Positions 32,901 to 54,510 of a stretch of 54,565 bases of DNA are shown piece after piece. The stretch comes from a virus. The stretch covers positions 1 through 54,565 of the IMG/VR virus record IMGVR_UViG_3300001844_000164. One strand, 5' to 3'. The translations under genes and the position numbers were made by a program. Each line of letters opens with the position of its first letter. The stretch's first letter is position 1. The notes under the pieces were generated by a model. That model saw only the letters and a program-made list of their open reading frames with translations, did not search any database and was not told where the DNA came from.

Positions 32901-35898
32901 AGGCGCCGACTATGCGCGGGTCGACGACGGTCTTGTCGTCGACTTCAACAACCTATCGACGGATCAGTTCCGGGCGTTCCTCGACAACGCTGCCAGCCAC
33001 AACGGGAGGACGGATATCACTCGCAAGAGCGCGGGACGGACTTTCAGTTCCAGCCATTTCCCGCACGACACGGGATACCTGGCCCACATCCGGACCACCA
33101 GGCGCACTTCAAGAAGCGGAGCAGACGCTCCCGTAAAGCAGGTGTACATGGTCGAGGAAATCCAGAGCGACCTCCACCAGCAGGGCCGCGAGAAGGGTTA
33201 CTACGGGAAGGACTTGAGTCAGAAAGATAACGACCTGGCCAACGAGGTCGTGAGGCTTCAGCAGCGTTCGTTCGCCGCCGAACGGGAATTCCAAAGAGAG
33301 ATCATCAGACACAAACAGGAGCTAGAAAAGACCACACGCGAGCTTACCAAAGCCGCTTCGGAAAGTCCTCTTTTGACGTCTGTGCTCTCGTCGCAATCCA
33401 TTGACCGACTTACCTATCACACCAATTCGCGCTTTGTAATCAACTTTGTCGACACGCTAATTGAAAAAGGCGTTGAACAGAAACTCTTCGCAGCGGACGA
33501 CGCACGACTTGGGAAAATTTTAGAGATTAGAAGCAAGCTGTCCGAGCAAAGAAAACAGCGCGAACAACTCATCGAATCCAAGGATGCCTTCGATGAGGAG
33601 ATGCGGACAGCAATGAGGGATGCGAACAAGGCTCGCCATTCCTTCCAGGAAGAAAACAGCGGACTCATCGCCGACGCCCCGTTCAAGAAGACCTGGCATG
33701 AACTAGCGTTCAAATACGCGCTCAACGAGGCGGTCCACAACGGCGCCGACTACATGGCCTGGACCACCGGCCGGCAACAGGCTGACAGGTACAATCAGTC
33801 GAGCGTGGTGAACCAAATCAATTGGGAGAACAAAGCCGACACCGGGAAAATCGTGCGGATCTCAACTAACCACGATCGGATGGAAATCGTGTTCAACGTC
33901 GATGAAAAGGGTGTGGTCTCCGCGATTCAGGAACAATTCGACGGAAGACGCCTGTCCGAGGTCGTAGGAAACGAAGTCGCCGCCAAGATTCTGGGAGCTA
34001 CTGACGGCACGTTGTCCGGAGACGGACTGAACATCGGCGGCGAAGGCATGGTCGGGTTCTATGACCGCATGATCCCGCAGTTCGCGGACCGCTATTTGAA
34101 GAAGTACGGCGTCCAGACCGAAACGATCGGGATAGGCACAGACCGTCCCGATTCAAACGTGAAAGTCCACGCCGTCGCGATCACGCCCAAGCTCCGCGAG
34201 GACATCCTGGCCTTCGGCCAGCCCATGTACGCCCCGGGGAGCAAGAAGAACTCCCGCCCGATCACCGACGTCGCCGATCAGACGTTTGAAGTGAAGGCCA
34301 AGGGCAAGGCGCCAATGATGATGTCCATCCGCGATCGGTATCAGGACCAGATGGTCCACGCCGAGGCGATGCCGCTCGAGTTCGAGGTGGACAGCAAGGG
34401 GAAGGTCAAACTCCGGAAAAATGGGCCCAAGATCATCACGCGCGACTACGACTTCTTCGACTCTCCCGTCGTCGAAGCGTTGAAAATCAACCAGGACGTG
34501 CTCGACGACCTTCGGACAAAGCTCAACGTCGCCACGCTGGGCGAAATCAAGAACGGCTACCTGGATTCCGAGCTCACCGTCGCCGAGAAGGACGCGATGA
34601 AGAAGATGGTGAACGCCTACTCCGACCGGGCGATCGCCGACTTCAAGCGGTACGCCGACGATCCGGAGGTCAAGGCGGCGGCCGGCTGGTACTCCGACAT
34701 CGCCGAGTTCTTCAAGGGCCTCATTCCGGACCAGACCGACCGCACCAAGTTCCTCGAGTTCCTGGGCGGAACCTCGCCGAACACTTCCGTCGAGCAGAAC
34801 TTCCTCTACGCGCTCGACCTCTACAACCGCTGGAAGCAGGGTGACCTAGACTCGCTGCACCAGGCTTACCGCAAGGTGCTCAACGAGTTCGAGCCTATGG
34901 TTTCCGAGTTCGCGGAACGCAAGCCGGTCATGCTGAAGAACGGCAAGCAGAGCATGAAGCTCGGCCAGCCGGTTTTCGAGTGGAGCTTCAAGCCGGGAGG
35001 CGAGGACGCATTCCGCAAGGCGTACTACGACGCGCTGGTGGCCGACGGGTTCCCAAAGTCGGAAGCTCGCGCAGAGTCTACGGATGACTTCAGCGAGGCG
35101 ATGTTCTGGACCTACCTCCACCTGAAGAACGGCGTGCAGCTCGAGCGCGCCGGCGAGGGCGGCGGGAAGTACGGCGTGCATACGGACCGCATCCTCCAGA
35201 TCCTCGACAACTCCTGGCGCAGCACGACCGACGCCCCCAAGGCTCCAAACTTCACCGAGAACCTCGCGGGATTGTCCACCCGGGCGACGATCGACGTGTG
35301 GGCCGCCCGCTGGCTTCGCCGGCTGGGTCACGACGGATTGAGTCAGAAGTGGCGCCTCCTGCCCATGTCTGAAAAAGGCGTGGCAAACTTCGACTTCTTC
35401 CTCGGCCAGGAAATCTTCGCCGAGACCACCCGCCGCATCAACGACCAGTTTTCCGAGCAGCTCGGCCGCAAGATCGGCGCCGACGACCTCCAGGCGATCA
35501 TGTGGTTTGCCGAAAAGCGCGAATGGCGTAACCGCGGCTGGGCGCAGATCGAGGACCTCGGCGACTTCCGCCAGTACTCCTACAAGATGCAGCCGCAGAA
35601 CGACGGCACATTCCTGCTCAAGGACGTCGTGCTCAACTCGACCTCAATCGACTTCCTCAAGAGCTTGAGCGGCGTCCAGGTCGAGGGCGCCAAGCTCATG
35701 TCGCTCGACAACAAGGCGGCCAAAAAGATCGGCAAGTTGCAGGAGAAGCTCGCCGAGATCTCTGAAAACCTGGCGCAAATTCCGGAGAAAGAGCGCGGGA
35801 AAAAGTGGGTCAAACAGTACTCCGACACGGCCAAAAAGGTGTTGGCATTGAACGCGGGGCGTGAGAAAAAGTACTCAACCTCCGATTACCGTGAATAG
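26992..35898 (+). CDS. Giant polyvalent internal virion protein, 2968 aa
   Basis: The third inner-core gene (gp16 position) and the largest in the window. Residues 1-470 are mostly helical; a glycine-zipper-like hydrophobic stretch (GAAIGAGFGVLAG, about 472-503) could insert into a membrane. GLLQHEVKHHLAL contains HExxH at 605-609, a zinc-metallopeptidase motif. An ADP-ribosyltransferase-like module starts with LYRGHSH (Y1129) and another with KYYHISGKSLG (1525 on). EEIQSDLHQ (2055-2063) marks a domain common in phage polyvalent proteins. The end (about 2650-2840) includes NFTENLAGLSTRATIDVWAA, a further recurrent phage domain. Modules are separated by KFSPG (1320), RYSPG (1504), RYSPG (1692) and MYAPG (2412). 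Codons at about 33290-33660 are visibly less GC-rich. Probably injected with the DNA to act on the host; the ART and peptidase activities are inferred. Confidence 0.8.
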   Translation: MTLGDPITQDPKKNSGPSLGAPVSLGAPVDPLAEDTPIEVFEQWEKSLPQPGLAAQAGEVAAHFGEGLYEATKTVAGLGLKNLRTLVDPTQTVDDKMQTYKETAATGAEIAANAYKGFAGMGSYLASAGPQVRNASMDLLSTDANERADARTTAAKARRTHMRNMRDLSASSNDGRVMADALFNAIAESATNAGIAGFDSKSNSMTDTKVNEKGAEFLSNFVDPDMGAYIVRKVAKWAGKDVVRSEAARQAVTDFPYTGRFAEAQRAVAEASNKVAESEYSMEATRAAGGVVPQDMALTHERLVKEQAQATVHFQKTVDEMRRQQMELGLESELGKSTAQVATGRVVEGAGKLAQKGADFVGKVDDAIDRMLSRATDGSAAARRMADQQVKNVVPGIGALPVTESTLRGTGQFLEEAGRLMAERESSLPYFQSLKRALPEGSVGRRAAGMAENLEFLANTGRWAFDTAADAGKGAAIGAGFGVLAGDTSGGAMQGALFGMVGSQYGQWAKMNSPEQVYLQQRVDIEKASQRRDGMPNNQKTEYDGLSNYQKLLVATFEQAHPDLSINFVREKGQGAAGWYDYNGKVGSVTVDLDHPTPFTGLLQHEVKHHLALNPEVAQSVRTQLIGDPDSGVPGVFVERDAAGRPIVREIPDAQVPGLVRREFALNQDFYARREEYLSRLRDAGKPTIDYERSNARIAEEIWAELTAVNLMHRQANGRFDILAEQAMGPVQRRLADMFANSDLVANSSFIQKALGKFGVVFDGFTGRAANTGLFSEQPDVPGIRNMVEQYYRKSDDKRAADSDPETRDVRMYTEAEILKSPELMDMFSAGHDVVRDPVSGKLRFTSEKEAKARAEDFVKTLTQELDSYAGNEAGVVRRMETADEKGRKQLVWMGTRIPEGVIAKMEQSGRFNAVQLQNLRVLSDILGGGLGNEVNMKYQPAMKRGGALYRSRPITDRTETPMTIRVTLDGNVAINTVSQEKLIRNAVNAIKQGRADLFGNDFQTLWKDINTYLSNHANGLAGDANGLGVEKKDFINSLFGQLTLQQRDFNPFLQELSVKQARNLGIVQTRRLDRINQLHTLSTTFKPDYTKVARNYAPGFGGRLREQDLIEDPTRYFKNSDGTPRPLYRGHSHSDPFLAKSDNTVPTFTDSKDIAAVYAGEQAGARVGRYTVDVQRPLKIGNLFEDVVEYRDLEQAITKSGAVSPEEFRSWAEEFGALWRNEGDENTLRGWEKENIGLDDIYTSTWYVADNAKFKELAERAGYDGYVYRGSFTSEDKFLRDSKKVEQESSYNYRTLSSLEARPLRPEQVKPAPVGEGEKFSPGARQLGENADFTAIPTDEELRAAMQKAHGDKPGSRAEKIGGARGLEAGYPVDVRIDIPTFNKSGEYAVTVHERGIGTVIGYDSMVAIDNPTFKSNEAAAERIRDGKSNKTPIAVVRGDFNPSRDIPKDINKWTAVGFDPVDHSYFYDKRTDEPVISGKKAISVGNTVFVKNPVYGKKSGVRYSPGASARDAAEAADFSTREKYYHISGKSLGALDDKRVLYITPDPNFTGISSDNPAKTSDELWLKRGAKIFDAHRDADKLDLPANHKAHNAQLKAAYAKVEDLGIDEVWKKDRAAYDTWYAGDYAWIEDHIDEIRALGYDAFITRENGTNNLGILNPEIVKSANPITRGDDGKEIPLSERFGRRHDVRYSPGSEKDPTTGLYSPLEQTLAAIPAKATRQQIEAALRDGVKEKGQLVARPAKKEEMDDVRDATGRTFTEFLKDNPQATREQMLDFVRENRVKVTPNTGGTPVHKVTFDGEEGDFAREYGTRAEAFAAIEDEVQRRADEIVLDKVAGKIEDDRTGEWLYIDHQEGSDLWEVKIGSGVNSASNPAYTAADIRYYSFDEALMGLAEYKNRIVREERQRYDVSTEGEEGRFAQYTLPGGTDYREHVLTFPEQGERISGRTKFKDQTSVDEFLTDISASGLEGADYARVDDGLVVDFNNLSTDQFRAFLDNAASHNGRTDITRKSAGRTFSSSHFPHDTGYLAHIRTTRRTSRSGADAPVKQVYMVEEIQSDLHQQGREKGYYGKDLSQKDNDLANEVVRLQQRSFAAEREFQREIIRHKQELEKTTRELTKAASESPLLTSVLSSQSIDRLTYHTNSRFVINFVDTLIEKGVEQKLFAADDARLGKILEIRSKLSEQRKQREQLIESKDAFDEEMRTAMRDANKARHSFQEENSGLIADAPFKKTWHELAFKYALNEAVHNGADYMAWTTGRQQADRYNQSSVVNQINWENKADTGKIVRISTNHDRMEIVFNVDEKGVVSAIQEQFDGRRLSEVVGNEVAAKILGATDGTLSGDGLNIGGEGMVGFYDRMIPQFADRYLKKYGVQTETIGIGTDRPDSNVKVHAVAITPKLREDILAFGQPMYAPGSKKNSRPITDVADQTFEVKAKGKAPMMMSIRDRYQDQMVHAEAMPLEFEVDSKGKVKLRKNGPKIITRDYDFFDSPVVEALKINQDVLDDLRTKLNVATLGEIKNGYLDSELTVAEKDAMKKMVNAYSDRAIADFKRYADDPEVKAAAGWYSDIAEFFKGLIPDQTDRTKFLEFLGGTSPNTSVEQNFLYALDLYNRWKQGDLDSLHQAYRKVLNEFEPMVSEFAERKPVMLKNGKQSMKLGQPVFEWSFKPGGEDAFRKAYYDALVADGFPKSEARAESTDDFSEAMFWTYLHLKNGVQLERAGEGGGKYGVHTDRILQILDNSWRSTTDAPKAPNFTENLAGLSTRATIDVWAARWLRRLGHDGLSQKWRLLPMSEKGVANFDFFLGQEIFAETTRRINDQFSEQLGRKIGADDLQAIMWFAEKREWRNRGWAQIEDLGDFRQYSYKMQPQNDGTFLLKDVVLNSTSIDFLKSLSGVQVEGAKLMSLDNKAAKKIGKLQEKLAEISENLAQIPEKERGKKWVKQYSDTAKKVLALNAGREKKYSTSDYRE

Positions 35899-40353: not shown

Positions 40354-40611
40354 GGTAGGGATGACGCCGACCACCGTGAGAGCGTTTTTTACAAACGCAA
40401 TACATATTTCGCGATACCAGGCTCGCGATACCAGCAGCGCCGCTTACCCAGCGTTACGCGCGCATTCCGGCAGCCAGGGCCTGGAGAATTTCATAGGTAA
40501 GTGGACACCAGCAGACACCTGGAAACATGTCTCTCGGTCCAAGAAATACTACGGGGCGCAGAGCTAAATTTGGCGCTTGATACCAGGGTGCGATACCACC
40601 TGACTGGACGT
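40354..40611. promoter_or_regulatory. Divergent control region between DUF932 and integrase, with repeats
   Basis: This 258-bp gap is less GC-rich than its surroundings. It contains TCGCGATACCAG at 40409-40420 and again at 40423-40434 (14-bp period). GATACCA recurs at 40579 and 40592. A further inverted pair, TGGTATC-ACGC-GATACCA, lies inside the integrase gene at 40985-41002. The DUF932 side has TTTTTTACAAACGCAATACATATTT around 40385. The sites could be operators of a regulator or arm-type binding sites of the integrase. The attachment site itself could not be defined from this sequence alone. Confidence 0.5.
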
Positions 40612-41802
40612 GTGAGCACAATCCCTACCAAAACCAGGACAGAGTGGACAAAGACAGGCACCATCGGCCTCTACCAGAGGTACTGCGGGACCTATTACTC
40701 CCGCTATTCGATCAACGGCGCGCGGACCTTCCGCTCGCTCAAGACTGACGTCTACACCGTCGCCAAGCTCCGGCACGCCCGGCGCACGGGCGACGTCGAA
40801 ACCGCTCGCCAGAAGGGCGTTACCATCGACGCGGATCTCCGCACCCTGGGCGCCCTGGCCGCCGCCCTGGAGGCGGAGGTGGCCAGCTCCCAGGCCGCGC
40901 CGGCCACGAAAACCGGCTACCGCAACTGGATCGCGAGGCTCCGGGAGAACTGGCAGGGCGACTTCGAGACCGCCCAGGCGAGGCTGGTATCACGCGATAC
41001 CATCTCCGAACTGCGCCAGTTTTTGCTCACCAAGGCGCCCCGCCGCAAGCAGCCGGACCGCTGCGGCTACAAGCCCGCGGTCGTGAACCAGACCCTCACC
41101 GCCCTGCGCCTCATGCTCGAGATCGCGGTGCGCCACCACGTCATCCTCCAGAACCCGTTCAGCGACGGCACGGCGATCCGGCAGTCAGTCTACCTGCCGG
41201 CCGACACCAGGCGCCCGGAGATCCCGGAGAACGCGGTCATGGAACGGATCTTCGCCGAAATGGCGCGCGTCCCGGACGCCGAGAACTACGACGACCTCAC
41301 GCTCAAGTTCTTCCAGTCTTGCGCGGAGAATTCGGCCGAGCATGCGCGCTTCCTGGCCTACTCCGGCCTCCGGCTGTCGGAGGCCCAGGCCGCGACCTGG
41401 GACGACGTCAAGGGTGACTGGCTGGTCGTCCGCGGGACCAAGACCGAGACGAGCGCCCGCCGGGTGCCCATCGTTCCCGCGCTCCGGGCGCTCCTGGACC
41501 AGATCAAGACCAAGCGCATCGCCGGCCCGATCCTGGGCGTGAAAACGTCCATCGACGCCATGCAGCGGGCGTGCGCCCGCCTTGGGCTGCCGCCGCTGCG
41601 CCATCACGACCTGCGGCACTTCTTCGCCACGGCGTGCATCGAAAGCGGCGTCGACATCCCGACCGTCGCCGACTGGCTCGGCCACGCGGACGGCGGAACG
41701 CTGCTGATGCGGACCTACCGCCACCTGCGGTCCAAGCACTCGCTCGACGCGGCGCAGAAGCTCACCTTTGGGCTGCCGCCCGCTCAATCGAAGAGCGCGT
41801 GA
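40612..41802 (+). CDS. int: Tyrosine recombinase (phage integrase)
   Basis: Start chosen at the GTG at 40612 (396 residues). The longer frame from 40501 is low in GC3 and lies over the repeat region. The N-terminal part is a SAM-like core-binding domain (TKTGYRNWIARLRENW). The catalytic part has R254 in YSGLRLSEA, H332-x-x-R335 in HHDLRHFF, H358 in WLGHAD and Y369 in RTYRHL, the complete set for a tyrosine recombinase. It would carry out site-specific integration and excision. The 3' end overlaps the leftward excisionase-like gene by 41 nt on the opposite strand, so each transcript runs into the other. Confidence 0.92.
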   Translation: MSTIPTKTRTEWTKTGTIGLYQRYCGTYYSRYSINGARTFRSLKTDVYTVAKLRHARRTGDVETARQKGVTIDADLRTLGALAAALEAEVASSQAAPATKTGYRNWIARLRENWQGDFETAQARLVSRDTISELRQFLLTKAPRRKQPDRCGYKPAVVNQTLTALRLMLEIAVRHHVILQNPFSDGTAIRQSVYLPADTRRPEIPENAVMERIFAEMARVPDAENYDDLTLKFFQSCAENSAEHARFLAYSGLRLSEAQAATWDDVKGDWLVVRGTKTETSARRVPIVPALRALLDQIKTKRIAGPILGVKTSIDAMQRACARLGLPPLRHHDLRHFFATACIESGVDIPTVADWLGHADGGTLLMRTYRHLRSKHSLDAAQKLTFGLPPAQSKSA

Positions 41803-42064: not shown

Positions 42065-42249
42065 GTGTGTACGATCACGCCGACGCGGAGGCACGCCCAG
42101 ACCAGGCCGAGCGTCATGTCCACGCGGATACAGCGGACGGCCTTTTCGCCGCGCAGGATGTAGTCGTACTGGGAGCCGAGCATGATGCCGAGGCGGATGT
42201 CGATCGGCTCGTTGCCCCAGGTGAAAACGAATTGTGGGATGAATCTCAT
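42061..42249 (-). CDS. Hypothetical 62-aa protein
   Basis: ATGA overlaps on both sides fix this short gene between primase-helicase and the excisionase-like gene. The product is hydrophobic in part (MRFIPQFVFTWGNEPIDIRLGIMLGSQYDYI, with GLVWACLRVGVIVHT at the end) but has no clear membrane helix. I do not recognise it. The first half resembles a short conserved segment with GNEPIDIRLGI. Its coupled position suggests it is translated with the replication proteins. Confidence 0.65.
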   Translation of the reverse strand: MRFIPQFVFTWGNEPIDIRLGIMLGSQYDYILRGEKAVRCIRVDMTLGLVWACLRVGVIVHT

Positions 42250-44381
42250 AGTTCCTCCGGTCGCATGATCTTGAATCCCCGTTTCTGGTTGTTGCGGTGC
42301 AGAGACAGCCAGGGGACCTGCTGCTCGCACAGATGGTTGAGCTGCTGCTTGACGTGGTTGCGGATGTCAGCGACCCGCGGTAGCTGGGCGCGCACGACAT
42401 CGTTCGCCTGGATCTCTGACACCAGGTCAGAGGCGGTCCCAAACCAGTACTGCTCCTTGTCCTTCGCTTGCCGGAAGTACTGGACGCGCCAGGTGTCCAG
42501 CGTCTCGCGGAGTGCGGCCGCCGGCGATGCGTCCGAGGCAATGTCCATCATTTCCGGGTGCAGCCAGGAGTCGTGCCCGAACCTCCAGACCTCGTCCTGC
42601 TTCGACAGCAGCCATTCCGGCGTCTTCCAGCCGGCCATGAAGTCGGCGAATGCCTGGCGCTCGCGGGCCACCGTCTCCTCGCAGCCGGAAAAATCGGTCG
42701 AGGTCTTCCGGGCGAGGAGAATGACCAGCTTGTCGCGGATCGATCCCTCGATCGACGGCAGCATCTGGACAGAGGTCGCGTCCGAGTTGAGCGTGACGAT
42801 CAACCGGCCGTTGAACCGGTGGGTTACCGCTTTCCGGAATTTGGGATGAAACTCCTGGTACGGGTTCGCGACCAGTTTCTTGACCGCGGCCGAGTACTGC
42901 TGATGCCGCTTGCGCTCGCTCGCTGCCGCCGCGTCGTCGACCGACCAGACGGGCGCGTGGAAGAGCTGCTCATTGAACCCGGAGTGCCCCAGGATAAAAG
43001 AGGTGGCCTCCTGGTGCCCTCCCATAAGCCCGCCAATGACGTGCTGCGAGAGGAACGTCTTGCCGGCCGAGACGTCGCCGCAGATGAAAAGCGCGTGCCC
43101 TTTGCGGGGCTTTCCAACCCTTGCCGTGTTGTAGAAGCGGCCGAGCCAACTCAATAGCACGTCTAGCTGCTGGCGGTCAAATAGCCCGCCAAGATACTGC
43201 GCGAGCCAGGGAAATCCGTCGCCCCATTCCCGGACCTGGCCCGTGGTCGGGTGCGGCTTCACGCGCGAGATGTTGAGGTACTTGGAATTGTTGTCGTGAA
43301 CAACCTCCTCGGGGAGGAAGATGCACGGGAAAGCACCGTCGACGCGGCGCGTGTTCTCGATCGCAGAAAGGGCGCTGGCTACTTCAGAAGTGGCGCTGCG
43401 CCGGGTATCGTTGGAAAGCCCGTGGTCGGTCTGCAACCGCCGGCCCATCTGATTACCAGCGAACGCTTGCCAGATCCCCGAGGCGTCCTTCTCCCAGTAG
43501 AGCTGGCCGTCGTAGTAGATCGCGTTGATGGCTCCGCCAATCTTGTTGGCGCGGTACTCGGCGACGAACTGGGCGCCCAGCACTTCCGCCCAGGGCATGA
43601 ATTTCGCCTCGCCCGTCCATGCCTGGACTCCGGTGGCCCGCAACGTGCATCCGGTGGGGTTATCCGCCTTCGGGTCCCAGAACCGAACGCCCTTGGCCCC
43701 TTCGAGGAACGGGCCGGGCCAGCGGCCGGGCCAGCGGCGGTCGACCTCGGCGGCCACCGCTTCCATCGGGACCACCGGGCCGTCGACCTTCCACTTCGCC
43801 TTCTCGCTCGCGTCGCAGAGCGCCGCCATCACCAGGTTCGCCGGCAACCTGGCGTCGCCCCAAGGCTGCCGCCAGTTGGTCCCCAGCTCGTAAGGCGTGT
43901 GAGGATTGTTCCAGGCCACTTCGTCGAGCCCGGGAAGGTGGTCCTTCACTTTGAGCTCCTTCGCCATCGCGACCTTGAACTTGCCCATGACCTCCGCGGA
44001 AAACGCGGGAACCGGGCGCTCGAAGACCCAGATCAACCGGGCTTTTCCCGAGAACGTAGTCGTAACCCAGGTAGGAGCGCGACCGGCGCTGAACTTCAGC
44101 TTGGCCAGCTCGGCGTTGATCGCCTCCGGCATGCCGTCGTAGTCGGCGATCAACCCGTGCATGTACTTGATCGGGTTCTGCCCGCTCGACCGCTGCGCCG
44201 GAAATTCCGGCTCGGCGAGCGTGTAGAAAACGTGCTCGGTGCTCGCGTCGTGGCACCACTTCGCGAACTCGTCCTTCGCCGCAAACTGCGGGCGCGTAGA
44301 CAAGGACGGGAGCGACGCCAGCTCCGCCTTGAACAGCTCGGACGAGCTGTGGTTCCTGATGTAGAAGGCGACGGGGTTCAC
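42246..44381 (-). CDS. Primase-polymerase/helicase (DUF5906-like)
   Basis: A 711-residue replication protein. The N-terminal ~250 residues look like an archaeo-eukaryotic-type primase (GLIADYDG, TTTFSGKARLIWVFERP, VAWNNPHTPYELGTNW). The C-terminal part has Walker A GDVSAGKT near 432-440 and Walker B VWSVDDAAA about 55 residues later, followed by a helicase motif with FNGRLIVTLNSD. This is the combination found in phage primase-helicase proteins with a DUF5906-type ATPase. It would unwind and prime DNA for the family A polymerase. It overlaps both neighbours by ATGA. Confidence 0.85.
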   Translation of the reverse strand: MNPVAFYIRNHSSSELFKAELASLPSLSTRPQFAAKDEFAKWCHDASTEHVFYTLAEPEFPAQRSSGQNPIKYMHGLIADYDGMPEAINAELAKLKFSAGRAPTWVTTTFSGKARLIWVFERPVPAFSAEVMGKFKVAMAKELKVKDHLPGLDEVAWNNPHTPYELGTNWRQPWGDARLPANLVMAALCDASEKAKWKVDGPVVPMEAVAAEVDRRWPGRWPGPFLEGAKGVRFWDPKADNPTGCTLRATGVQAWTGEAKFMPWAEVLGAQFVAEYRANKIGGAINAIYYDGQLYWEKDASGIWQAFAGNQMGRRLQTDHGLSNDTRRSATSEVASALSAIENTRRVDGAFPCIFLPEEVVHDNNSKYLNISRVKPHPTTGQVREWGDGFPWLAQYLGGLFDRQQLDVLLSWLGRFYNTARVGKPRKGHALFICGDVSAGKTFLSQHVIGGLMGGHQEATSFILGHSGFNEQLFHAPVWSVDDAAAASERKRHQQYSAAVKKLVANPYQEFHPKFRKAVTHRFNGRLIVTLNSDATSVQMLPSIEGSIRDKLVILLARKTSTDFSGCEETVARERQAFADFMAGWKTPEWLLSKQDEVWRFGHDSWLHPEMMDIASDASPAAALRETLDTWRVQYFRQAKDKEQYWFGTASDLVSEIQANDVVRAQLPRVADIRNHVKQQLNHLCEQQVPWLSLHRNNQKRGFKIMRPEEL

Positions 44382-44797
44382 GGCATCTTGATCGGTTCGA
44401 TGGTGATCGTGCGCCCGGCGGTGGTGACGCTCGGCTTAACCCCCTGACGGTACGGCAGGTCGTTCAGCGCCGCGGGCAGCCGACCAGCGGCAATCTCCCC
44501 TTCGGTCCAGTCCATCGCGGCGGCGTTCCAAAGGATCGCGCCCATGTGGTCCTCGGACGTGTCGCCCTCCGCCCAGGCCAGGATGTGGCGCAGGAGCGAG
44601 TCCTGGTAGTGCGACAAAGCGATGCCCTTCATCCAATTGTTCCGCGAGTACTTCCTGGCGCCGTCTTCAAAGCGGCGCGCAATCCGCCGCAACGAGCACG
44701 GCGGGATTGCGTGGAAATGACCCTTTCCCACCGAGGCGTCGCGAACAGCCCCGGTCCCGTACTCGGTACGGCTTCCTGTGTCTGGTAGTGAGTTCAT
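44378..44797 (-). CDS. dATP/dGTP diphosphohydrolase-like (DUF5664) protein
   Basis: A 139-residue protein; the ATG at 44797 overlaps the stop of the previous gene (ATGA). Key segments are GKGHFHAIPPCSLRRIARRFEDGARKYSRNNW, HYQDSLLRHILAWAEGDTSEDHMGAILWNAAAM and TEGEIAAGRLP. They match the DUF5664 family, described as the N-terminal domain of dATP/dGTP diphosphohydrolases. Such enzymes adjust deoxynucleotide pools; in phages with 2-aminoadenine DNA, relatives supply the modified-base pathway. No PurZ-like gene is visible here, so base replacement is not supported. The N-terminal ~18 residues are variable. Confidence 0.72.
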   Translation of the reverse strand: MNSLPDTGSRTEYGTGAVRDASVGKGHFHAIPPCSLRRIARRFEDGARKYSRNNWMKGIALSHYQDSLLRHILAWAEGDTSEDHMGAILWNAAAMDWTEGEIAAGRLPAALNDLPYRQGVKPSVTTAGRTITIEPIKMP

Positions 44798-45171
44798 CGA
44801 GAGAAAATTTCCCAGCCGGCACGGTGGTGCAGCGTGCTCAAGGCAAGATTCACGTTGGTGCGGTGCCGCGTGCTTTTTGGGAGAAACGCCCATCGCCCGG
44901 CGGTGGTGACCCAAACGGCCAGCACGTCGAAATTGGGTGAGGTGCGGGTGTTGCGTTTAACGGAGATGCGGCAGTACGCCTTCCCTCCCATCGGGTGCGG
45001 GTTGCACCCCTTCACCTGGACGCGGTAGAGGCGTTTGCCTGTGTCGACGATCGCGTCGTAGCCGGGCGCCGAGGAAAACGGTACGCTCACCAGGAACCCC
45101 TTCGCCTGGGCGTCCATGACGAAGCGGGCCTCCGTCTCGCGGCCGAAATCCAGATGCTTGGCGGTGGTCAT
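44794..45171 (-). CDS. PD-(D/E)XK nuclease (resolvase-like)
   Basis: A 125-residue single-domain nuclease. E14 (GRETEARFV), D39 (GYDAIVD) and Q52-V-K54 (RVQVKG) give the E...D...QxK pattern of PD-(D/E)XK enzymes, similar to the PDDEXK_5 family and some Holliday-junction resolvase-like proteins. It would cut branched or foreign DNA or help process replication intermediates. It overlaps both neighbours by ATGA within the replication operon. Since a RuvC-like resolvase is also present at 51243, a nuclease function other than junction resolution is possible. Confidence 0.75.
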   Translation of the reverse strand: MTTAKHLDFGRETEARFVMDAQAKGFLVSVPFSSAPGYDAIVDTGKRLYRVQVKGCNPHPMGGKAYCRISVKRNTRTSPNFDVLAVWVTTAGRWAFLPKSTRHRTNVNLALSTLHHRAGWEIFSR

Positions 45172-47234
45172 TTTTTGTAGTGCTGGGCGACCTCGGCTTC
45201 CGCGGCCACCGGGAGATCCGCCGCCCAGGACGGCGTGGTCGTGAGCAGCCGCACGATTTCGTCCGGGGTCACGTTCTCGTCGACCTCAACGACAACCTCG
45301 TCGTGAACGTGAAACAGGACGCGGTGCCCGGCCCGCTCGATGTTGAGCATCCCGTGCAGGAACAGGTCACGCGCGACGGCCTGGACGTAGTTCTCAACCA
45401 GGAGCCCGCCGTAGGTGCGTTGGGGGATTCCCCGGGGATTGCCCGGCTTGCACATCCAGCCGGTCGCGGTGACCGCAAAGTACCGGAGCACGCGGCCGGA
45501 CGGCAGCTCGTTCTCGAACAGACCGTCGAGAGCCGACGCCTTGAAGTCTTTGTCGAACCGGTCCCAGAGGCCCTTAATCAACTGATTCGATCGGCGGAAC
45601 GACGTGACCTGGAGCCACGAATTGACCCAGACATTTCGTGTCTGCTCGTCTGCCTCGTTGGTAAAGAACATGAGCGCCTTCTTCGACGGGGCGTGCCCGA
45701 GCTCCTGAACCAACCAAAGCAGGTAGCTCTTGAATTCCTCGACCGCCTTGTCGCTCGGCTTGACTCCAAACACCGCCAGGAACTCCTCCTCATTCCCGAG
45801 GTAGCCGCGCGCCATCTCGACGAACTTGTGCCAGCCGGCGCCGTAACCCAGGGCGAGCACGCGCGCCTTGGCCAACGCGTAAACCTGCGGAGCCTCCTTC
45901 TTCAGGTTGCCGGCGGTCCAACCCATCGAGGTGCGGGCGTGAGCCTCGTAGGGGCCCATGCCGGCCGCGCAGAGCGTGAGGAAATCAAGGTTGCCGACCG
46001 CCCAGTTGAGCACCCGCGGCTCGATCTGTGACAGGTCCGCGATGACCATCTTCCGGCCTGGGCCGGCGACGATCCTGGCTCGAACGTCGACGACGTAGGC
46101 GGCGCCCTTCGCCGAGTCCATCCAGCCAAACTCCGCGTCGAAGCAAAGCGGCGCCTTCATCAGGTTCTGCAAATTGAACTTGGCCGCACCGCTCCACCTT
46201 CCGGTCTTCGCGGCGCCCATGTACTTGAGGCCCAGGGCGGCACGGCCGTCCGGGCGGATGCGGGCCTGGAGCGCCCGGTAGACCGACAGGGCCCGGTCGA
46301 TGCGGCGATAGCGGCCGAGCTCGATCACCGCAGGGACGCGCTCGCCGTACTCGTCGAGCCACTCCAAAAACTCCTTCGCCTTTTGGGCCGTCGTGGACGG
46401 CGGCGGCACGCCGCACTTCAAGCACTCCTTGTCCAGGGCGGCCTTGCTCCGGAGGGCAACAGGCTTGCCGTGCTCGTCCTCGGTATCCACCCAAGGAATA
46501 CGCTTGCGGACGTGATGAAGCGCCGTCTCGAGGACGCTGATGTCCCGGTCCACGGCCGCCCGGTCAACCGGGACGCCGCGAAATTCGATTTCGGCGGTGT
46601 GCAGCGATGCCTGGCGCTCATGCTCGGGCCACCCGGGCGACAGGTGAGCCCAGAGCAGCCAGCACAGCGCGGCGTCCTCGAGGGCATAGGTCAGCACGCG
46701 GTCGCGTTCGCTCACGGGCACGTCGTTCCAGCGCACGCCGTCCATGTCGGAGCGCACCGCCTTATCCAACTTGACGCGGAATTGGCACTCGGCCGCCTGG
46801 GCAATCGCCCTGGGAAGGTGCGAGTAGACCGCCAGGTCGGCGGTGTCGTGCCAGACCTTCCAGGCTTCCGCCTTGGACATGTCAGGGCCCCAGACGGTCA
46901 TGTCCGGCACCTTGCGCTGCTCGACCAGGCGCTCGAACACATGGCGATCGAAGTTCGCGTTGTGACTCACCCAGACGCGGCCGGCAACCTTCTCCCAGGG
47001 CGCCGTGCGCGGGTCGCCCACATACTGCACGTCGGGCGCGTAAATGGACACCATGTAGGCATCCCATTCCGGGTGGCGGCAGTAACCGTAGTTGCCTGAA
47101 AGCTCGACGGTGCAGGGCGTCGTGCCATCGCGCCGCGCCTTCTTCTCCGACCGGTAAAAGGTCTCGAAGTCGACGGCAACGGCATCCTGGCCTCCGGTGG
47201 TGGAGGCCAGCAGGGCTTGGATTTCGGCTCTCAC
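45168..47234 (-). CDS. DNA polymerase, family A (Pol I-type)
   Basis: GTG start at 47234 overlaps the upstream stop (GTGA); 688 residues. Residues 22/24 (VDFETFY), SHNANFDRHVF and YALEDA mark a 3'-5' proofreading exonuclease. The polymerase part has KTGRWSGAAKFNLQNL, motif A VIADLSQIEPR (D near 398), motif B with R-x-x-x-x-x-x-YG (RVLALGYGAGWHKF) and motif C HVHDEVVVEV (D near 644). It lacks the 5'-3' exonuclease domain of bacterial Pol I, as in phage enzymes such as T7 gene 5. It is the replicative polymerase of this phage. Confidence 0.93.
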   Translation of the reverse strand: MRAEIQALLASTTGGQDAVAVDFETFYRSEKKARRDGTTPCTVELSGNYGYCRHPEWDAYMVSIYAPDVQYVGDPRTAPWEKVAGRVWVSHNANFDRHVFERLVEQRKVPDMTVWGPDMSKAEAWKVWHDTADLAVYSHLPRAIAQAAECQFRVKLDKAVRSDMDGVRWNDVPVSERDRVLTYALEDAALCWLLWAHLSPGWPEHERQASLHTAEIEFRGVPVDRAAVDRDISVLETALHHVRKRIPWVDTEDEHGKPVALRSKAALDKECLKCGVPPPSTTAQKAKEFLEWLDEYGERVPAVIELGRYRRIDRALSVYRALQARIRPDGRAALGLKYMGAAKTGRWSGAAKFNLQNLMKAPLCFDAEFGWMDSAKGAAYVVDVRARIVAGPGRKMVIADLSQIEPRVLNWAVGNLDFLTLCAAGMGPYEAHARTSMGWTAGNLKKEAPQVYALAKARVLALGYGAGWHKFVEMARGYLGNEEEFLAVFGVKPSDKAVEEFKSYLLWLVQELGHAPSKKALMFFTNEADEQTRNVWVNSWLQVTSFRRSNQLIKGLWDRFDKDFKASALDGLFENELPSGRVLRYFAVTATGWMCKPGNPRGIPQRTYGGLLVENYVQAVARDLFLHGMLNIERAGHRVLFHVHDEVVVEVDENVTPDEIVRLLTTTPSWAADLPVAAEAEVAQHYKK

Positions 47235-47437
47235 TTGCTGGTACGCAGCAGCACCAGGGCGATCTCGCCCGTCGCGTTGTTGGTCACAATCTCGACCGGC
47301 CACCCGCTTTTCCGGGTGATCCGCTGCCGCTCACGCTCGAGCCAGGCGCGGTAGGTCATAGGCCCATCGCGGGTCTCGACCATGTCTTCCTCCTTGCCGA
47401 CCACCGTGATGTAGTGGAGTATCCGGTCCGTGTTCAT
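47231..47437 (-). CDS. Hypothetical 68-aa protein
   Basis: Begins with the ATG at 47437, just after the motif ATCCCTACCA (in leftward orientation) and an inverted-repeat hairpin. Ends with a GTGA overlap to the polymerase gene. The product MNTDRILHYITVVGKEEDMVE... has a beta-like start and a charged helical middle (YRAWLERERQRITRK). I do not recognise the family. It is probably translated as the leader gene of the polymerase and may have a role in its expression. Confidence 0.65.
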   Translation of the reverse strand: MNTDRILHYITVVGKEEDMVETRDGPMTYRAWLERERQRITRKSGWPVEIVTNNATGEIALVLLRTSK

Positions 47438-48285: not shown

Positions 48286-49431
48286 TCAGATTTTGGCGGG
48301 GCGGGCCCGCACCAGCTTTGGCGTCGGCTCCGGGCGCTCGACCGCATCCAGGTCGACCAGGCGCTGCCCAAACGCGGCAACGACCTGCGCCTTCTCACCG
48401 CGAGCCGCGCGGCTCTTGAGGGTGTCCTCGACCTTGGTCCAGGACAACGTGGCGGCGTCGATGAGATCCTGGGCCGAGATGCCAAACTCCTGGGCGGCCA
48501 GGAGAAGGCCCTCCGGGCTCGTCACGCGGCGCCGGCCCTTGGTCCAGTCAATGACGTAGCCGGCAGGGACGTTGTCGGCGCTCTCGAGGGCCGCGGTGAG
48601 GTTGTGGTGCCGCACCGACGCGGCCCATGTCTCCATGAGCCCAGCCAGCTCCTGGAGCTGCGCCCGCTGCACGGGGTCCTTGACCTCGCTTGCGTGCGTC
48701 TGCTGCGGAACGGCGGGCCGTTGACCGTAGCCCTCTGGGTCGTAAGCCCGCCCGAGCTGGTCGGCGATGCGGCGGAGGGCCACGCAACGGCCGGCGGCGC
48801 CGCAGTAGCGGCAGACGTCGTAGCTCGGGTTCAGGCTCGCGCCGCGATACCTCTTTGTGTCGGTCGCCCGGGCGCGGGCCAGGTTGCTGAAGATCTCGAG
48901 CTTGAGGCGCGGCACGTCAGCCCGGGTGAACGGCTCGCTCGTCCGCGTGACCGCGTTCAGCCGAGGCATGACGAAGTGAACGTGGATGCGCTCGACCCCC
49001 GGGAACCGCCAATCCTCAAAGATCCCGATCACATAGTCCTTACCCTGGAGGTTGATCTCCGCGTCGGGCACCTCCTTGGCCCTGACGAATTTCCAATCCA
49101 AAAGGTGCGCGGTGCCGTCATGGCAAACAATCAGGCGGTCGCAGTAACCCCAGCGCCCTTCGATCGTGTTAACTTTGAACTCATTGATCACGCTGGAGTC
49201 CAGCTCCGTGAGCTGCGAGGCATAGTGCTCGCAGATGGCGACCATGCGCTCCTCGAACCCGCTTTCCAGCTCGCCGGAGTCACCGGACTCCAGGGCGGCG
49301 TGCCCGCGGGTGCCCTGCTCGGTCACCCAATGCGCCCGCTTGCCGGACGGCTGCGGCCGGTAGCCGGGGCACATAGCCAGGGCGCCCTGTTGGGACGCGC
49401 TGCGCTCGGCGTGCGGACGTTCGTTGCTCAT
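48286..49431 (-). CDS. DUF2800/PD-(D/E)XK RecB/Cas4-type nuclease
   Basis: A 381-residue protein with the nuclease core E84 (INEFKV), D98 (GYCDRLIV) and D112-W-K114 (LLDWKF), and a cysteine cluster (YDVCRYCGAAGRC near 225-237) typical of 4Fe-4S Cas4/AddB-like nucleases. An early Cys (MCPGYRP) may supply the remaining ligand. DUF2800 proteins occur in replication-recombination clusters of phages, and act as exonucleases in recombination or repair by analogy. Upstream are two direct repeats of GATGTATTAC, which could be a regulatory site. Confidence 0.82.
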   Translation of the reverse strand: MSNERPHAERSASQQGALAMCPGYRPQPSGKRAHWVTEQGTRGHAALESGDSGELESGFEERMVAICEHYASQLTELDSSVINEFKVNTIEGRWGYCDRLIVCHDGTAHLLDWKFVRAKEVPDAEINLQGKDYVIGIFEDWRFPGVERIHVHFVMPRLNAVTRTSEPFTRADVPRLKLEIFSNLARARATDTKRYRGASLNPSYDVCRYCGAAGRCVALRRIADQLGRAYDPEGYGQRPAVPQQTHASEVKDPVQRAQLQELAGLMETWAASVRHHNLTAALESADNVPAGYVIDWTKGRRRVTSPEGLLLAAQEFGISAQDLIDAATLSWTKVEDTLKSRAARGEKAQVVAAFGQRLVDLDAVERPEPTPKLVRARPAKI

Positions 49432-49664: not shown

Positions 49665-49963
49665 TGGTGAAGCGGATTCGCGATGAAGAGCGGAGTGAGA
49701 GGTCCGACGTAGGCGCAGGCCACATTGAAGTCGAAATACTCGATCGCCTCGTCACGGTCCATGCCCTGGTCCATCAGGATCTCAAGGCACATCGCCATCG
49801 AGTACACCGCCCGCACCTCGTTTTCTTCGCAGCCGTCGTCCGGGAAGAACCCGAGGAAAGCGGCATCGAAACCGTCGGCCAAGAGTGAGCTTTTGTCGTA
49901 GTCATCGAGGGCATCGCAGATGTCCTTGCGCGTTGGATACGTCTTTGCGGTGGGCTTTTTCAT
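49574..49963 (-). CDS. Hypothetical 129-aa protein
   Basis: Begins with ATG at 49963, ATGA-overlapping the helicase gene. The N-terminal ~95 residues look real and conserved-like: TRKDICDALDDYDKSSLLADGFDAAFLGFF, DRDEAIEYFDFNVACAYVGPLTPLF. The last ~30 residues (KTRNSPRRPKCSTAKSSRSSTATSK) are of different character and lie over the start of the 49491 gene. They may be a true tail or indicate that the reading frame ends early by frameshift or sequencing error. Acidic, no motif of known function. Confidence 0.6.
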   Translation of the reverse strand: MKKPTAKTYPTRKDICDALDDYDKSSLLADGFDAAFLGFFPDDGCEENEVRAVYSMAMCLEILMDQGMDRDEAIEYFDFNVACAYVGPLTPLFIANPLHQWKTRNSPRRPKCSTAKSSRSSTATSKKRT

Positions 49964-51246
49964 GTGGTTAGTGGGTCAAGATCTCCATCGTTGATCGTCT
50001 CGATCTGGTTGGCTTTTCGCTCCACCGCCGCCTTCACGCGGCGCTCGATGCTGTTCTCGAGCGTGAGCACGGTGCGGAACGCGGGCGTCTTCTGCCCCAC
50101 CCGGCGGTTGCGGCCCAGGGCCTGGACCAGGTCGCGGGCGTTCTCCGGGGGCGAGATCAGCGAGTGCCGCGGAAACCTGCCGTGCGTATCATGCAGACTG
50201 ATACCAACACCGCCGGCGCCGGTCTGAAGCACCAGGCAGCGCGAGCGGTCAGCCTGGAACAGGTCGATCGCATGCTCGCGGTCCCGGTCCGACGCACGAC
50301 CGTCGATGACGTGCGCCGCGAGCGCCTGGGAAACTGCGTCGATTGAGTCGTGGAAGTTCAGGAAAATGGGCACGCTCAAGCCCGAGGACATCAGGTCGCG
50401 GGCCAGGTCGATGATCGCCGGCACCTTTGCGAGCTCGGCCAACTGACGTGCGCGCAGCCGCTCGACCGCCGAGTTGATCGCCTCACGCTTCAACGCCTCG
50501 AGCTCGGACACGCGCGACCACGCGGCCTCCATGCGCTCCAGGTCAGCCTCCTTCGCGGGCAACTCACGCACGTCGGTGGTGGCCTCCGGGAAACCAGGGA
50601 TCTCGTCGTAGCTCTTGCGGTGGCCCCGACTCGGAAACAGCTCGGAATTCAAACGCTTCAGAGCTGACGGGTCATGCCTGGAATCGAACACGAAACCAAA
50701 CCCGTCACGGATGACGCCGAACCGAGCCTGGAACGCTTGCCAACCAAAGTGATCGCCGTCGTGCAGCCCGAGCAAATACCCGGTCGCGTAGAGGTCGGTG
50801 GGGTCCACCGCGAGCGTGGCGCTCATCACCAGGGTGGGAATGCCCTGGCGCTTCGCAGCCGTGAGCAGCTTGGCATTCTGCGACGTGCGGTTCTTGCAGT
50901 AGTGCGCTTCGTCGAAGACCAGGAGCGTCGGCTTCGGCACCGTCCACCGCCACCGCCGATTTTTGATTTCCCACTCACCCCTGGCGGTGTGCCCGAGCTT
51001 GTGCTGCTCGTAGTTGGAAATACAGCGCACCGGGGCACCAACCGCTTTCGCCGCCCGGGTCCAATGGGGGATGACCACCTTGGGGCAGATGACCACCATC
51101 GGGTGCTGCATCTCGCGGGCGACAAACGACGCAACGAACGTCTTGCCGAAACCGGCTACTGAAGCCTCGGCCGAGGCGCCACGCTCACGCAGGAGCCTGA
51201 CGTGGTGGCCGATTGCGTCCTGCTGAAACGGCAGAGGCTCGATCAT
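49960..51246 (-). CDS. SF2 (SNF2-type) helicase
   Basis: The ATG at 51246 overlaps the RuvC-like gene (ATGA); 428 residues. Motif Q-like start (PFQQDAIGHHV), Walker A-type AGFGKT (K35), motif II DEAH (112-115), MSATLA (motif III), LQTGAGGVGISLHD (motif V) and QALGRNRRVGQK (motif VI). These define an SF2 helicase of the SNF2/DEAD type. In phages such proteins help recombination, replication restart or branch migration. It is probably the helicase partner for the neighbouring nucleases. Confidence 0.88.
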   Translation of the reverse strand: MIEPLPFQQDAIGHHVRLLRERGASAEASVAGFGKTFVASFVAREMQHPMVVICPKVVIPHWTRAAKAVGAPVRCISNYEQHKLGHTARGEWEIKNRRWRWTVPKPTLLVFDEAHYCKNRTSQNAKLLTAAKRQGIPTLVMSATLAVDPTDLYATGYLLGLHDGDHFGWQAFQARFGVIRDGFGFVFDSRHDPSALKRLNSELFPSRGHRKSYDEIPGFPEATTDVRELPAKEADLERMEAAWSRVSELEALKREAINSAVERLRARQLAELAKVPAIIDLARDLMSSGLSVPIFLNFHDSIDAVSQALAAHVIDGRASDRDREHAIDLFQADRSRCLVLQTGAGGVGISLHDTHGRFPRHSLISPPENARDLVQALGRNRRVGQKTPAFRTVLTLENSIERRVKAAVERKANQIETINDGDLDPLTT

Positions 51247-51731
51247 GGCTCTTCCCACCGGTTCCAGTCGAACGGCAGACGATTGACGACGTACTGGCTG
51301 ATGAGCAGCGCGTCCGCGATCGCCAGGGTGACCTTGAGGTCGGGGAACATGCCTTGGGCGATCGCCTTGAGCTGTCGCTTACGGTCAGGGCCCTGGCCAA
51401 TGACGTCAGGAGCCACCACCTTCTGCCACGCTTGCGGCGTGAAACAGCGCACCGGGATGCCCGACACCCGGAGGGCGCTCACCCAGGCTCCGTAGTTCTC
51501 CCCAAACGCGAACGCCGCGCTCACCCCCATCGCCGGCGAGGCCCAGACCTTCTCGATCAACGCAACGATCGGGAACACCGACAGATTGTTGGCGCGCAGG
51601 AACGCGCAGAGCTTCACCAGGTCCTGCGGCCCCGAATACGCGCAGACGCTGGCAATCGTGCCGTCAGGCCGGCGGACGACGTAGCCACCGGACGCCCCGG
51701 GATCGATGGCAACAAAAAGGGAGGGCTGCAT
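51243..51731 (-). CDS. RuvC-like Holliday junction resolvase
   Basis: A 162-residue protein with an RNase H-like fold signature: D10 in VAIDPGASGG, E60 in ALIEKVW and D140 in LAIADALLI, plus AFAFGENYGAWVSAL and GIPVRCFTPQAWQK. This is the layout of phage RuvC-like resolvases. The ATG at 51731 follows a CACAGG sequence 0-8 nt upstream. The reverse strand upstream shows TTCACG, a 16-nt spacer and TATCAC, a possible leftward promoter. It resolves recombination or replication intermediates before packaging. Confidence 0.85.
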   Translation of the reverse strand: MQPSLFVAIDPGASGGYVVRRPDGTIASVCAYSGPQDLVKLCAFLRANNLSVFPIVALIEKVWASPAMGVSAAFAFGENYGAWVSALRVSGIPVRCFTPQAWQKVVAPDVIGQGPDRKRQLKAIAQGMFPDLKVTLAIADALLISQYVVNRLPFDWNRWEEP

Positions 51732-51780: not shown

Positions 51781-52125
51781 TTACGCCGCCAGGTGCTTGT
51801 ACCTGAACTCCTCGCTTCTGCGCGGGTGGTAGAGGCGATGCCGGCGGCTCATAATCTTTCGCACCGCCGATTCGCTCACGTTGAAACGCTTGGCCACGTC
51901 GATCACCGACAGGAACGTGGTCGTGGAGACCGCGTAGATGTCGTCGTGCAACGCTTCCGTCATCTCCACCCGCACCTTGGCGCGCGGCGTGGCCACGCGA
52001 GGAATCGATGCGAGCACCTGGCGATCGACCTTGGGCGCCGCCGGCTTGTCCAGATTCGGGCAATGCTTGGCGACCAGAAACTCGAGCGCACGCATCGCCG
52101 AGCTCGCCGATTCAGCGTAGCTCAT
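51781..52125 (-). CDS. HTH domain protein
   Basis: The ATG at 52125 has an excellent Shine-Dalgarno (AAGGAGG, 6 nt upstream), in contrast to the late genes. The product is 114 residues. Its middle (LHDDIYAVSTTTFLSVIDVAKRFNVSESAVRKIMSRRHRLYHPRR) contains a helix-turn-helix of the sigma-70 region 4 / LuxR-like or replication-initiator-like shape (IDVAKRFNVSESAVRKI). The N-terminus is MSYAESASSAMRALEFLVAKH. It may be a transcription regulator of early genes or bind DNA in replication. It overlaps the tiny membrane protein by 14 nt. Confidence 0.7.
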   Translation of the reverse strand: MSYAESASSAMRALEFLVAKHCPNLDKPAAPKVDRQVLASIPRVATPRAKVRVEMTEALHDDIYAVSTTTFLSVIDVAKRFNVSESAVRKIMSRRHRLYHPRRSEEFRYKHLAA

Positions 52126-52219
52126 CGTCGTCCTCCTTCCGCGGCTTGATGAACGGCCACACCGCGACCAGCGCGATCGCGAACAGCGTGAGGTAGATCC
52201 AGTCAACGATGCGGCTCAT
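52112..52219 (-). CDS. Tiny single-pass membrane protein, 35 aa
   Basis: ATG at 52219 overlapping the previous stop (ATGA), preceded by GAGGAG, and ending 14 nt inside the HTH gene. The product MSRIVDWIYLTLFAIALVAVW has one clear transmembrane segment followed by PFIKPRKEDDDELR. Too short for automatic detection. Coupled spacing and the ribosome binding site make it credible. Its role is unknown; small early membrane proteins often affect host physiology or superinfection. Confidence 0.65.
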   Translation of the reverse strand: MSRIVDWIYLTLFAIALVAVWPFIKPRKEDDDELR

Positions 52220-53495: not shown

Positions 53496-53526
53496 TCGGG
53501 ATGTGAAGGGAAACTGATGGACCGCG

Positions 53527-53556
53527 AGCCCGGGAGACGGAAATCCCGGGCTTTTT
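53527..53556 (+). terminator. Rho-independent terminator
   Basis: AGCCCGGGA (53527-53535) and TCCCGGGCT (53544-53552) form a perfect 9-bp stem with an 8-nt loop, followed by TTTTT. It ends the lysozyme unit and isolates the iteron region downstream. Confidence 0.9.
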
Positions 53557-53565
53557 CGTGCCTGG

Positions 53566-53825
53566 GTGACAGAGTGACAAGGCGGTGACAGGGGGTTGTC
53601 ACCGCTTAACTCACTAGGCACCAGAGGGATCGGTGAGAAGTGACAAAGTGACAAGAAAATTTTCAAACCCTTATATATAAATTTCATATTCATACTTATC
53701 TTATTACCATTCTCTCTCACACATATTTAGAAAATTATGTCACTCTGTCACTAGCTCCGTAAGTCGTTGGCGCCCTAGGCCGGATTCGGTGACAAGTGTT
53801 TGTCACTCGCTGTCACCTTTGTCAC
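53566..53825. promoter_or_regulatory. Origin-like region: GTGACA/TGTCAC iterons around an AT-rich island
   Basis: Six GTGACA (53566, 53574, 53585, 53640, 53648, 53789) and six TGTCAC (53597, 53738, 53746, 53801, 53811, 53820) lie in 260 bp. Pairs spaced 8 bp (GTGACA-nn-GTGACA) flank an AT-rich stretch (53654-53737) on the left and face inverted pairs (TGTCAC-nn-TGTCAC) on its right. GCGGTGACA-GGGGGT-TGTCACCGC (53582-53605) is a perfect 9-bp inverted repeat. The AT-rich island stands out strongly in a GC-rich genome and could be a DNA-unwinding element. It is adjacent to the terminase small subunit gene, so a packaging (pac/cos) site is an alternative. Confidence 0.65.
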
Positions 53826-53976: not shown

Positions 53977-54510
53977 ATGGCCAAGCCGAACATCTTCTCC
54001 GACGTTCACCTCAAGTTCATCCGTCATGCGTACATGCGGATGATGCTGCCGCCCTCCGAGGTCACGGCTCACCTCAACGCCAAGTACAAGACCGACTACG
54101 CAGTCACCCAGGTGCAGCGCGTCATCAACGGCCGCGGCTGGTCGAAGCGGCGCAAGGCCGTGGTCGAGAAGGCCGGCGAGATCGAGGAGAAGAAGGACTC
54201 GGCGATCGTGCGTGAGCTGGCCGGCGCGCACGCTCGAGTGATGGACAAGGTCGCCCAGGGCGCAGTCGATGGACTCGATCGTGCGGCCGCGTTCGTCCGC
54301 GAAGCGCGCGACGCCCGCTCGCTCAACGCTGCTGCCTCGGCGCTCAAGTCGCTCACCGCAACGTACCGCTGCGCTGCTGGTATCGACACTTCAACTACAG
54401 CCCGAGGCCCGAGCGTGTACCAGTTCAACTTCAGCGCGACGAACATCGACGAGGAGCCCAAGCGCGTGGTCGAGGTCGCCACGACCGAGGCGGATGAGGG
54501 CGACGACTGA
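53977..54510 (+). CDS. terS: Terminase small subunit
   Basis: The ATG at 53977 follows promoter P9 by 12 nt and gives 177 residues. The longer frame from 53800 runs through the iteron and promoter region and is rejected. The N-terminal part (SDVHLKFIRHAYMRMMLPPSEVTAHLNAKYKTDYAVTQVQRVINGRGW) contains a helix-turn-helix DNA-binding domain. A helical oligomerisation part with ELAGAHARVMDKVAQGAVDGLDRAAAFVREARD follows, and an acidic tail (TEADEGDD). It recognises the packaging site and controls the large subunit. The adjacent iteron region may be its binding site. Bases 54511-54565 hold nothing recognisable. Confidence 0.8.
   Translation: MAKPNIFSDVHLKFIRHAYMRMMLPPSEVTAHLNAKYKTDYAVTQVQRVINGRGWSKRRKAVVEKAGEIEEKKDSAIVRELAGAHARVMDKVAQGAVDGLDRAAAFVREARDARSLNAAASALKSLTATYRCAAGIDTSTTARGPSVYQFNFSATNIDEEPKRVVEVATTEADEGDD

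Follow-up and report, generated by a model that had tools for sequence, protein, structure and literature searches.

Repeat Region of the Virus Record

The IMG/VR virus record IMGVR_UViG_3300001844_000164 (54,565 bp, analyzed over its full length and referred to below as the window) contains at positions 53566–53825 a dense cluster of short repeats, or iterons, of the sequence GTGACA/TGTCAC, arranged around an AT-rich core. This region is very probably the replication origin of the phage, opened by the D5-like primase-helicase encoded in the same record. A first-pass annotation, made from the sequence alone, had reported twelve copies of a 6-mer in 260 bp at this site as unlikely by chance, and all of them were found in place, six per strand, vs. 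eight in the remaining 54.3 kb. Since the total of 20 copies in the window equals the chance level, only their clustering is special. Elsewhere in the window no 6-mer exceeds 7 copies per 260 bp, and the densest 6-mer in 30 locally composed Markov shuffles likewise reached at most 7 copies; shuffling of the site sequence itself (20,000 trials) yielded a mean of 0.23 copies and a maximum of 4. The order of elements along the site is left outer set, inner tandem pair, core, inner tandem pair and right outer set:

53566..53825, no strand assigned: whole iteron region, proposed replication origin, with 6 + 6 copies of GTGACA/TGTCAC per 260 bp
53566..53602, no strand assigned: left outer iterons, at 53566 (+), 53574 (+), 53585 (+) and 53597 (-)
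53640..53653, plus strand: left inner tandem pair GTGACAAAGTGACA, period 8, copies at 53640 and 53648
53654..53737, no strand assigned: AT-rich core of 84 bp with 21% GC, lowest-GC stretch of the window, proposed DNA unwinding element
53738..53751, minus strand: right inner tandem pair TGTCACTCTGTCAC, period 8, copies at 53738 and 53746, facing the left pair
53789..53825, no strand assigned: right outer iterons, at 53789 (+), 53801 (-), 53811 (-) and 53820 (-)

The earlier description of symmetric pairs pointing inward holds for the inner pairs, which face each other across the core with a period of 8 bp, but not for all of the outer copies: 53585/53597 and 53789/53801 each form a convergent pair, TGACA-N6-TGTCA. 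The right inner pair is a perfect 14-bp inverted repeat of positions 53566–53579. Alignment of the iterons gives the consensus RGTGACA followed mostly by purines. The core, which contains the lowest-GC 80 bp of the window (mean GC content 65%), has six iteron copies on each side, inviting comparison with origins of the phage-inducible chromosomal islands (PICIs) and Staphylococcus aureus pathogenicity islands (SaPIs). No match to the iteron site was found in Rfam, nor to the iteron region in a nucleotide search against named phages, and literature searches of limited scope revealed nothing on GTGACA iterons, Sfi21 or PriRep1.

Primase-Helicase and the Repeat Clusters of Its Relatives

The proposed initiator is encoded on the side of the leftward replication genes:

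42246..44381, minus strand: archaeo-eukaryotic primase (AEP)/D5-like (DUF5906) helicase of 711 aa with a C-terminal winged-helix-like domain, proposed initiator (PF19263, E 2e-7)

The alignment of this protein revealed a conserved DYD motif at residues 80–82, as in AEP primases, and the Walker A motif GDVSAGKT, while the domain search gave no Toprim match. The model of the whole protein has a low confidence (mean predicted local distance difference test score, pLDDT, of 51); its best matches in the PDB were the C-terminal region (CTR) of NrS-1 (6lrb), PriRep1 with double-stranded DNA (7pds) and poxvirus D5 (8apl), so that all best matches of the predicted fold are primase-helicases of the same class. 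In the model the C-terminal region consists of helices followed by a two-stranded wing. A sequence search of the PDB with the primase returned one insignificant match and an alignment-based search none; tblastn of the primase-helicase against named phages also gave no match. The DUF5906 domain and the fold matches to PriRep1 and D5 indicate that a cognate helicase of the D5/SF3-like type is present on the same element as the iterons.

Relatives of the primase-helicase are encoded at eight viral loci (G001–G008), G002 being a short fragment. The first-pass annotation had suggested looking for the iteron in related phages, and equivalent clusters were found in G003–G008. The nearest relative covering the site, G003 (primase 65% identical), has RTGACA iterons and a core of 24% GC at the corresponding position, again adjoining the terS-like gene and about 9.5 kb from the primase gene. 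In G004, G005, and G007 (primase 36–38% identical), an unbiased k-mer scan revealed 12 copies of GGACAC per approximately 270 bp each; these clusters begin no more than about 20 bp from the stop codon of the primase gene and match the layout of the window, with a left outer set, inner pair, core, inner set and outer set. At 31% identity, G008 and the G006 locus resembling it carry a TGACAC cluster that includes an AT-rich core, directly 3' of the primase gene. A position immediately 3' of the helicase gene is therefore found in G004, G005, G006, G007, and G008, but not in the window.

The iteron sequence, as read from these loci, changes with the helicase lineage. The gene on the far side of the cluster in G004, G005, G007, and G008 codes for a helix-turn-helix (HTH) protein unlike the terS-like protein of the window. 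Since the cluster adjoins the 3' end of the primase-helicase gene in five distant relatives, it is tied to the helicase gene rather than to terS.

A separate repeat set was observed in G008 at 15093–15248 (locus L198), where 13 copies of GGGACA (5 on the plus and 8 on the minus strand) occupy 155 bp between the polA stop codon and the conserved start of the primase-helicase. These copies come in addition to the TGACAC cluster 3' of the gene; they may form another iteron set with a specificity of its own, or belong to a repeat within the N-terminal extension.

Occurrence in Other Viral Contigs

The wider occurrence of this arrangement was assessed with a degenerate pattern, TGACANNRTGACA-N68..98-TGTCAYNNTGTCA, in which two tandem TGACA pairs face inward; it matched 52 viral contigs of very different GC content, compared with 3 for the reversed control pattern. 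These 3 contigs have D5-like helicases as well, together with ACAGT-containing iterons (..ACAGT); they look like origins of the same class and are not true background. A DUF5906, VapE or DUF927 helicase was recognized in 21 of the 45 pattern-matched records checked, which include near-copies and are not phylogenetically independent; a D5_N family search added one further record only. In 14 of the 21 records, at most 1.2 kb separates the site from the 3' edge of the helicase domain, vs. 1.4 records expected from uniform placement. In four others of the 21 (L017, L025, L029, and L033, the first two being near-copies), the helicase gene and the site are 7–12 kb apart, with the site on the gene's 5' side; the window shows the same arrangement.

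Iterons resembling TTATGACATTATGACA were observed in a group of similar short viral contigs (L014, L022, L023, L024, L027, L030, L039, L041, L047, L052, and L061), between the TerL/portal genes and the early genes; a D5 helicase was not recognized on the fragments of this group that were checked. In Rhizobium phage RR1-A (NC_021560; L202 5866–6291), 11 copies of CTGTCC (6 on the plus and 5 on the minus strand) lie in 425 bp of noncoding DNA, two genes beyond the 3' end of the DNA primase gene; this region is a probable origin, and the RR1-A annotation shows no repeat or origin feature there.

Genes Surrounding the Repeat Region

The genes and features considered below are the following:

12118-13968: TerL-like gene, far from the iteron site
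44378-44914, leftward module: dATP/dGTP diphosphohydrolase-like gene (PF18909, E 3e-18), beside the PolA-family polymerase
45168-47303, leftward module: PolA-family polymerase
48286-49431, leftward module: PDDEXK exonuclease
49960-51258, leftward module: superfamily 2 (SF2) helicase
51781-52206, leftward module: HTH gene
53526..53556, plus strand: terminator-like hairpin AGCCCGGGA/TCCCGGGCT with a T run, between rightward lysis-type genes and the iterons
53980..54510, plus strand: gene of a small HTH-type protein, called terS in the first-pass annotation, of uncertain identity (weak PHROG match)

Genes to the right of the iteron site run rightward. Because the two ends of the window are near neighbors in the related G003 genome, the site lies near the junction of the leftward replication genes and the rightward late genes. 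The hairpin was recognized by eye and received no score in the consensus scan. With TerL-like and tail-like genes and an integrase, this 54.6-kb record differs from the PICI satellites, which are without a full structural set.

Comparison With Known Origins

The origins of PICIs consist of two iteron sets around an AT-rich region located 3' of rep, the pri-rep-ori segment supports plasmid replication, and this origin layout was described as unique to PICIs by Fillol-Salom et al. 2018 (PMC6092414). Like the PICI and SaPI origins, which work with Rep or Pri-Rep (PMC6092414; the SaPI Rep as cited in PMC7581432), the sites in relatives of the window lie immediately 3' of the helicase gene. In contrast to these satellites, the window represents a full-size tailed phage with terminase, tail genes, integrase and PolA, and its candidate origin and helicase gene are 9.2 kb apart.

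The Cch2 protein of the staphylococcal cassette chromosome mec (SCCmec) binds iterons or direct repeats 3' of its own gene with its C-terminal domain and unwinds the origin DNA (PMC7581432). The putative SCCmec Cch2 origin resembles the proposed system in that a helicase with a C-terminal DNA-binding domain for short direct repeats is encoded beside them and goes with an A-family polymerase; it differs in having three 5-nt iterons only and in being non-phage (PMC7581432).

In phage P4, the winged-helix domain of alpha binds the ori repeats, and unwinding and priming follow (PMC4234260). The annotated type 1 repeats of P4 (NC_001609), GGTGAACA, are found in two places: ori, which lies where two genes diverge, and crr, directly 3' of alpha. 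The likeness to the window comprises 8-bp direct and inverted repeats near AT-rich DNA, the union of primase, helicase and origin binding in one protein, and the position of ori apart from alpha, where leftward early and rightward late genes diverge, much like the site in the window. The differences are the iteron sequence, the primase type (Toprim in P4, AEP-like in the window) and the P4 crr 3' of alpha; no such second cluster is present in the window where its primase gene ends (near 42246).

Streptococcus phage Sfi19 has a similar 253-bp noncoding gap 3' of its DUF5906 gene, with 10 copies of GTAAC (5 per strand) and an AT-rich core, and differs in iteron and host; such a noncoding region 3' of the DUF5906 gene we take to be the origin in phages of this kind.

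Interpretation as a Replication Origin

Because the clusters of the relatives go with the primase-helicase gene and the layout agrees with that of P4 ori and crr and of the PICI origins, the region 53566–53825 is interpreted, with a probability of roughly 0.87, as a phage replication origin of the P4 alpha, SaPI Rep and PICI Pri-Rep type, opened by the D5-like primase-helicase of the phage. The origin layout of iterons and unwinding element proposed in the first-pass annotation is backed by the same helicase-linked clusters and by the P4 and PICI match. The lack of an obvious separate initiator, also pointed out there, is explained by the fact that in this class the primase-helicase itself is the initiator. 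The remote placement of the origin from the helicase gene is unusual, as in P4 ori, and implies no new mechanism.

The sequence of events proposed here is modeled on Cch2, the PICI pri-rep-ori segment and P4 alpha. The primase-helicase (42246–44381) would bind the GTGACA iterons flanking the core via its C-terminal winged-helix-like domain and assemble there, probably as two rings, one per iteron set. The assembled protein would then melt the AT-rich core, and replication would fire from 53566–53825, with the forks primed by the primase-helicase and extended by the PolA-family polymerase (45168–47303) and host factors.

Several observations weigh against this interpretation. The site lies 9.2 kb from the gene of the proposed initiator, unlike in most relatives, and G001, the locus with the most similar primase (70%), stops short of the region and gives no view of the site. 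GC skew shifts little at the iterons: the cumulative skew drops over 1–37 kb and stays flat beyond, and the site is not marked by any clear turn. The model of the C-terminal domain alone gave no significant PDB match, so that its winged-helix assignment is drawn from predicted secondary structure. About half of the pattern-matched records have no recognized D5 helicase, though many are short fragments, and unexplained repeats in some bacterial genomes match the pattern as well.

An origin at which another initiator, such as an HTH protein, binds the iterons and loads the primase-helicase appears unlikely. The distance of 9 kb to the helicase gene and the HTH proteins of unknown function encoded near the site would fit such an arrangement, but the iteron sequence shifts with the helicase lineage, helicase genes from several families have such clusters on their 3' side, and in characterized members the helicase itself binds the iterons (PMC7581432).

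The first-pass annotation had regarded a packaging site bound by TerS as equally worth testing; on this reading, of a pac or cos site, the product of the gene at 53980 would be the small terminase subunit binding the GTGACA repeats. It is common for small terminase subunits to bind within or close to the genes that encode them, the 53980 gene is directly downstream of the repeats in both the window and G003, where the adjoining protein is 78% identical, and some pattern sites lie no farther than 1–2 kb from a TerL gene (L014, L026, and L063). The terS label, however, is weak: the only PHROG match of the product is to phrog_4481, of unknown function, at E 6e-4, and TerL is encoded far off (12118–13968). 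No link to a genuine terS or terL gene was found across the relatives. In five of them the iterons lie 3' of the helicase gene and, in the four inspected (G004, G005, G007, and G008), between this gene and a different HTH gene, and the distance from TerL to the site ranges from about 3 to 33 kb in records with both. Packaging recognition also does not need a long AT-rich core, and this explanation is considered very improbable.

Still less credit is given to an operator cluster, at which an HTH regulator (51781–52206 or the 53980 product) would control divergent early and late promoters. The proximity of the site to the junction of leftward replication and rightward genes is in agreement with this, as are the HTH genes, which are close by in the window and in relatives adjoin the site on its 3' side. 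Against it, twelve sites in 260 bp and an 84-bp AT-rich core exceed the needs of an operator, no sigma-70-like promoter was found, and across diverse phages the recurrent neighbor is the D5-like helicase. Autoregulation at the origin is compatible with the replication-origin interpretation as well.

Phage origins are seldom located and few are known for phages with D5-like primase-helicases. The candidate described here could be read directly from the sequence. The kind of origin is already known; new is the PICI-type layout in tailed phages, sometimes 7–12 kb from the helicase gene. That many viral contigs carry it, among them tailed phages equipped with terminase and tail genes of their own, contradicts the view that it is restricted to PICIs and bears on the exchange of replication modules between satellites and phages. 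Because the iteron sequence of the relatives changes with the helicase lineage, the recognition code is testable. Tentatively, and at somewhat less than even odds, tailed phages with D5-like primase-helicases may share one origin code, in which short iterons, most of them centered on GACA, flank a melting core; the bases flanking the iteron would serve as a code of helicase-origin specificity or incompatibility, and the origin would be movable from its initiator gene to the early/late junction.

Additional Observations

A scan of genome contigs with the TGACA pattern gave at least 115 stretches, mostly repeats within a few metagenome-assembled genomes (MAGs), and was not used as evidence. Examples are JAJRVT010000xxx (Chloroflexi Dive96_bin10.65) and WQUT010000xx (Proteobacteria Cu122P5bin52), with many contigs each. 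The presence of inverted-pair matches across contigs of single MAGs suggests dispersed chromosomal repeats unrelated to phage origins.

A Z-DNA genome is unsupported, since no PurZ-type adenylosuccinate synthetase was found in the window record or the relatives. The presence of an integrase gene at 40501–41802 (phrog_1, E 6e-40) suggests that the phage is temperate. Two giant open reading frames are located at 26992–35898 (2968 aa) and 1312–8553 (2413 aa), the second being weakly conserved in G003.
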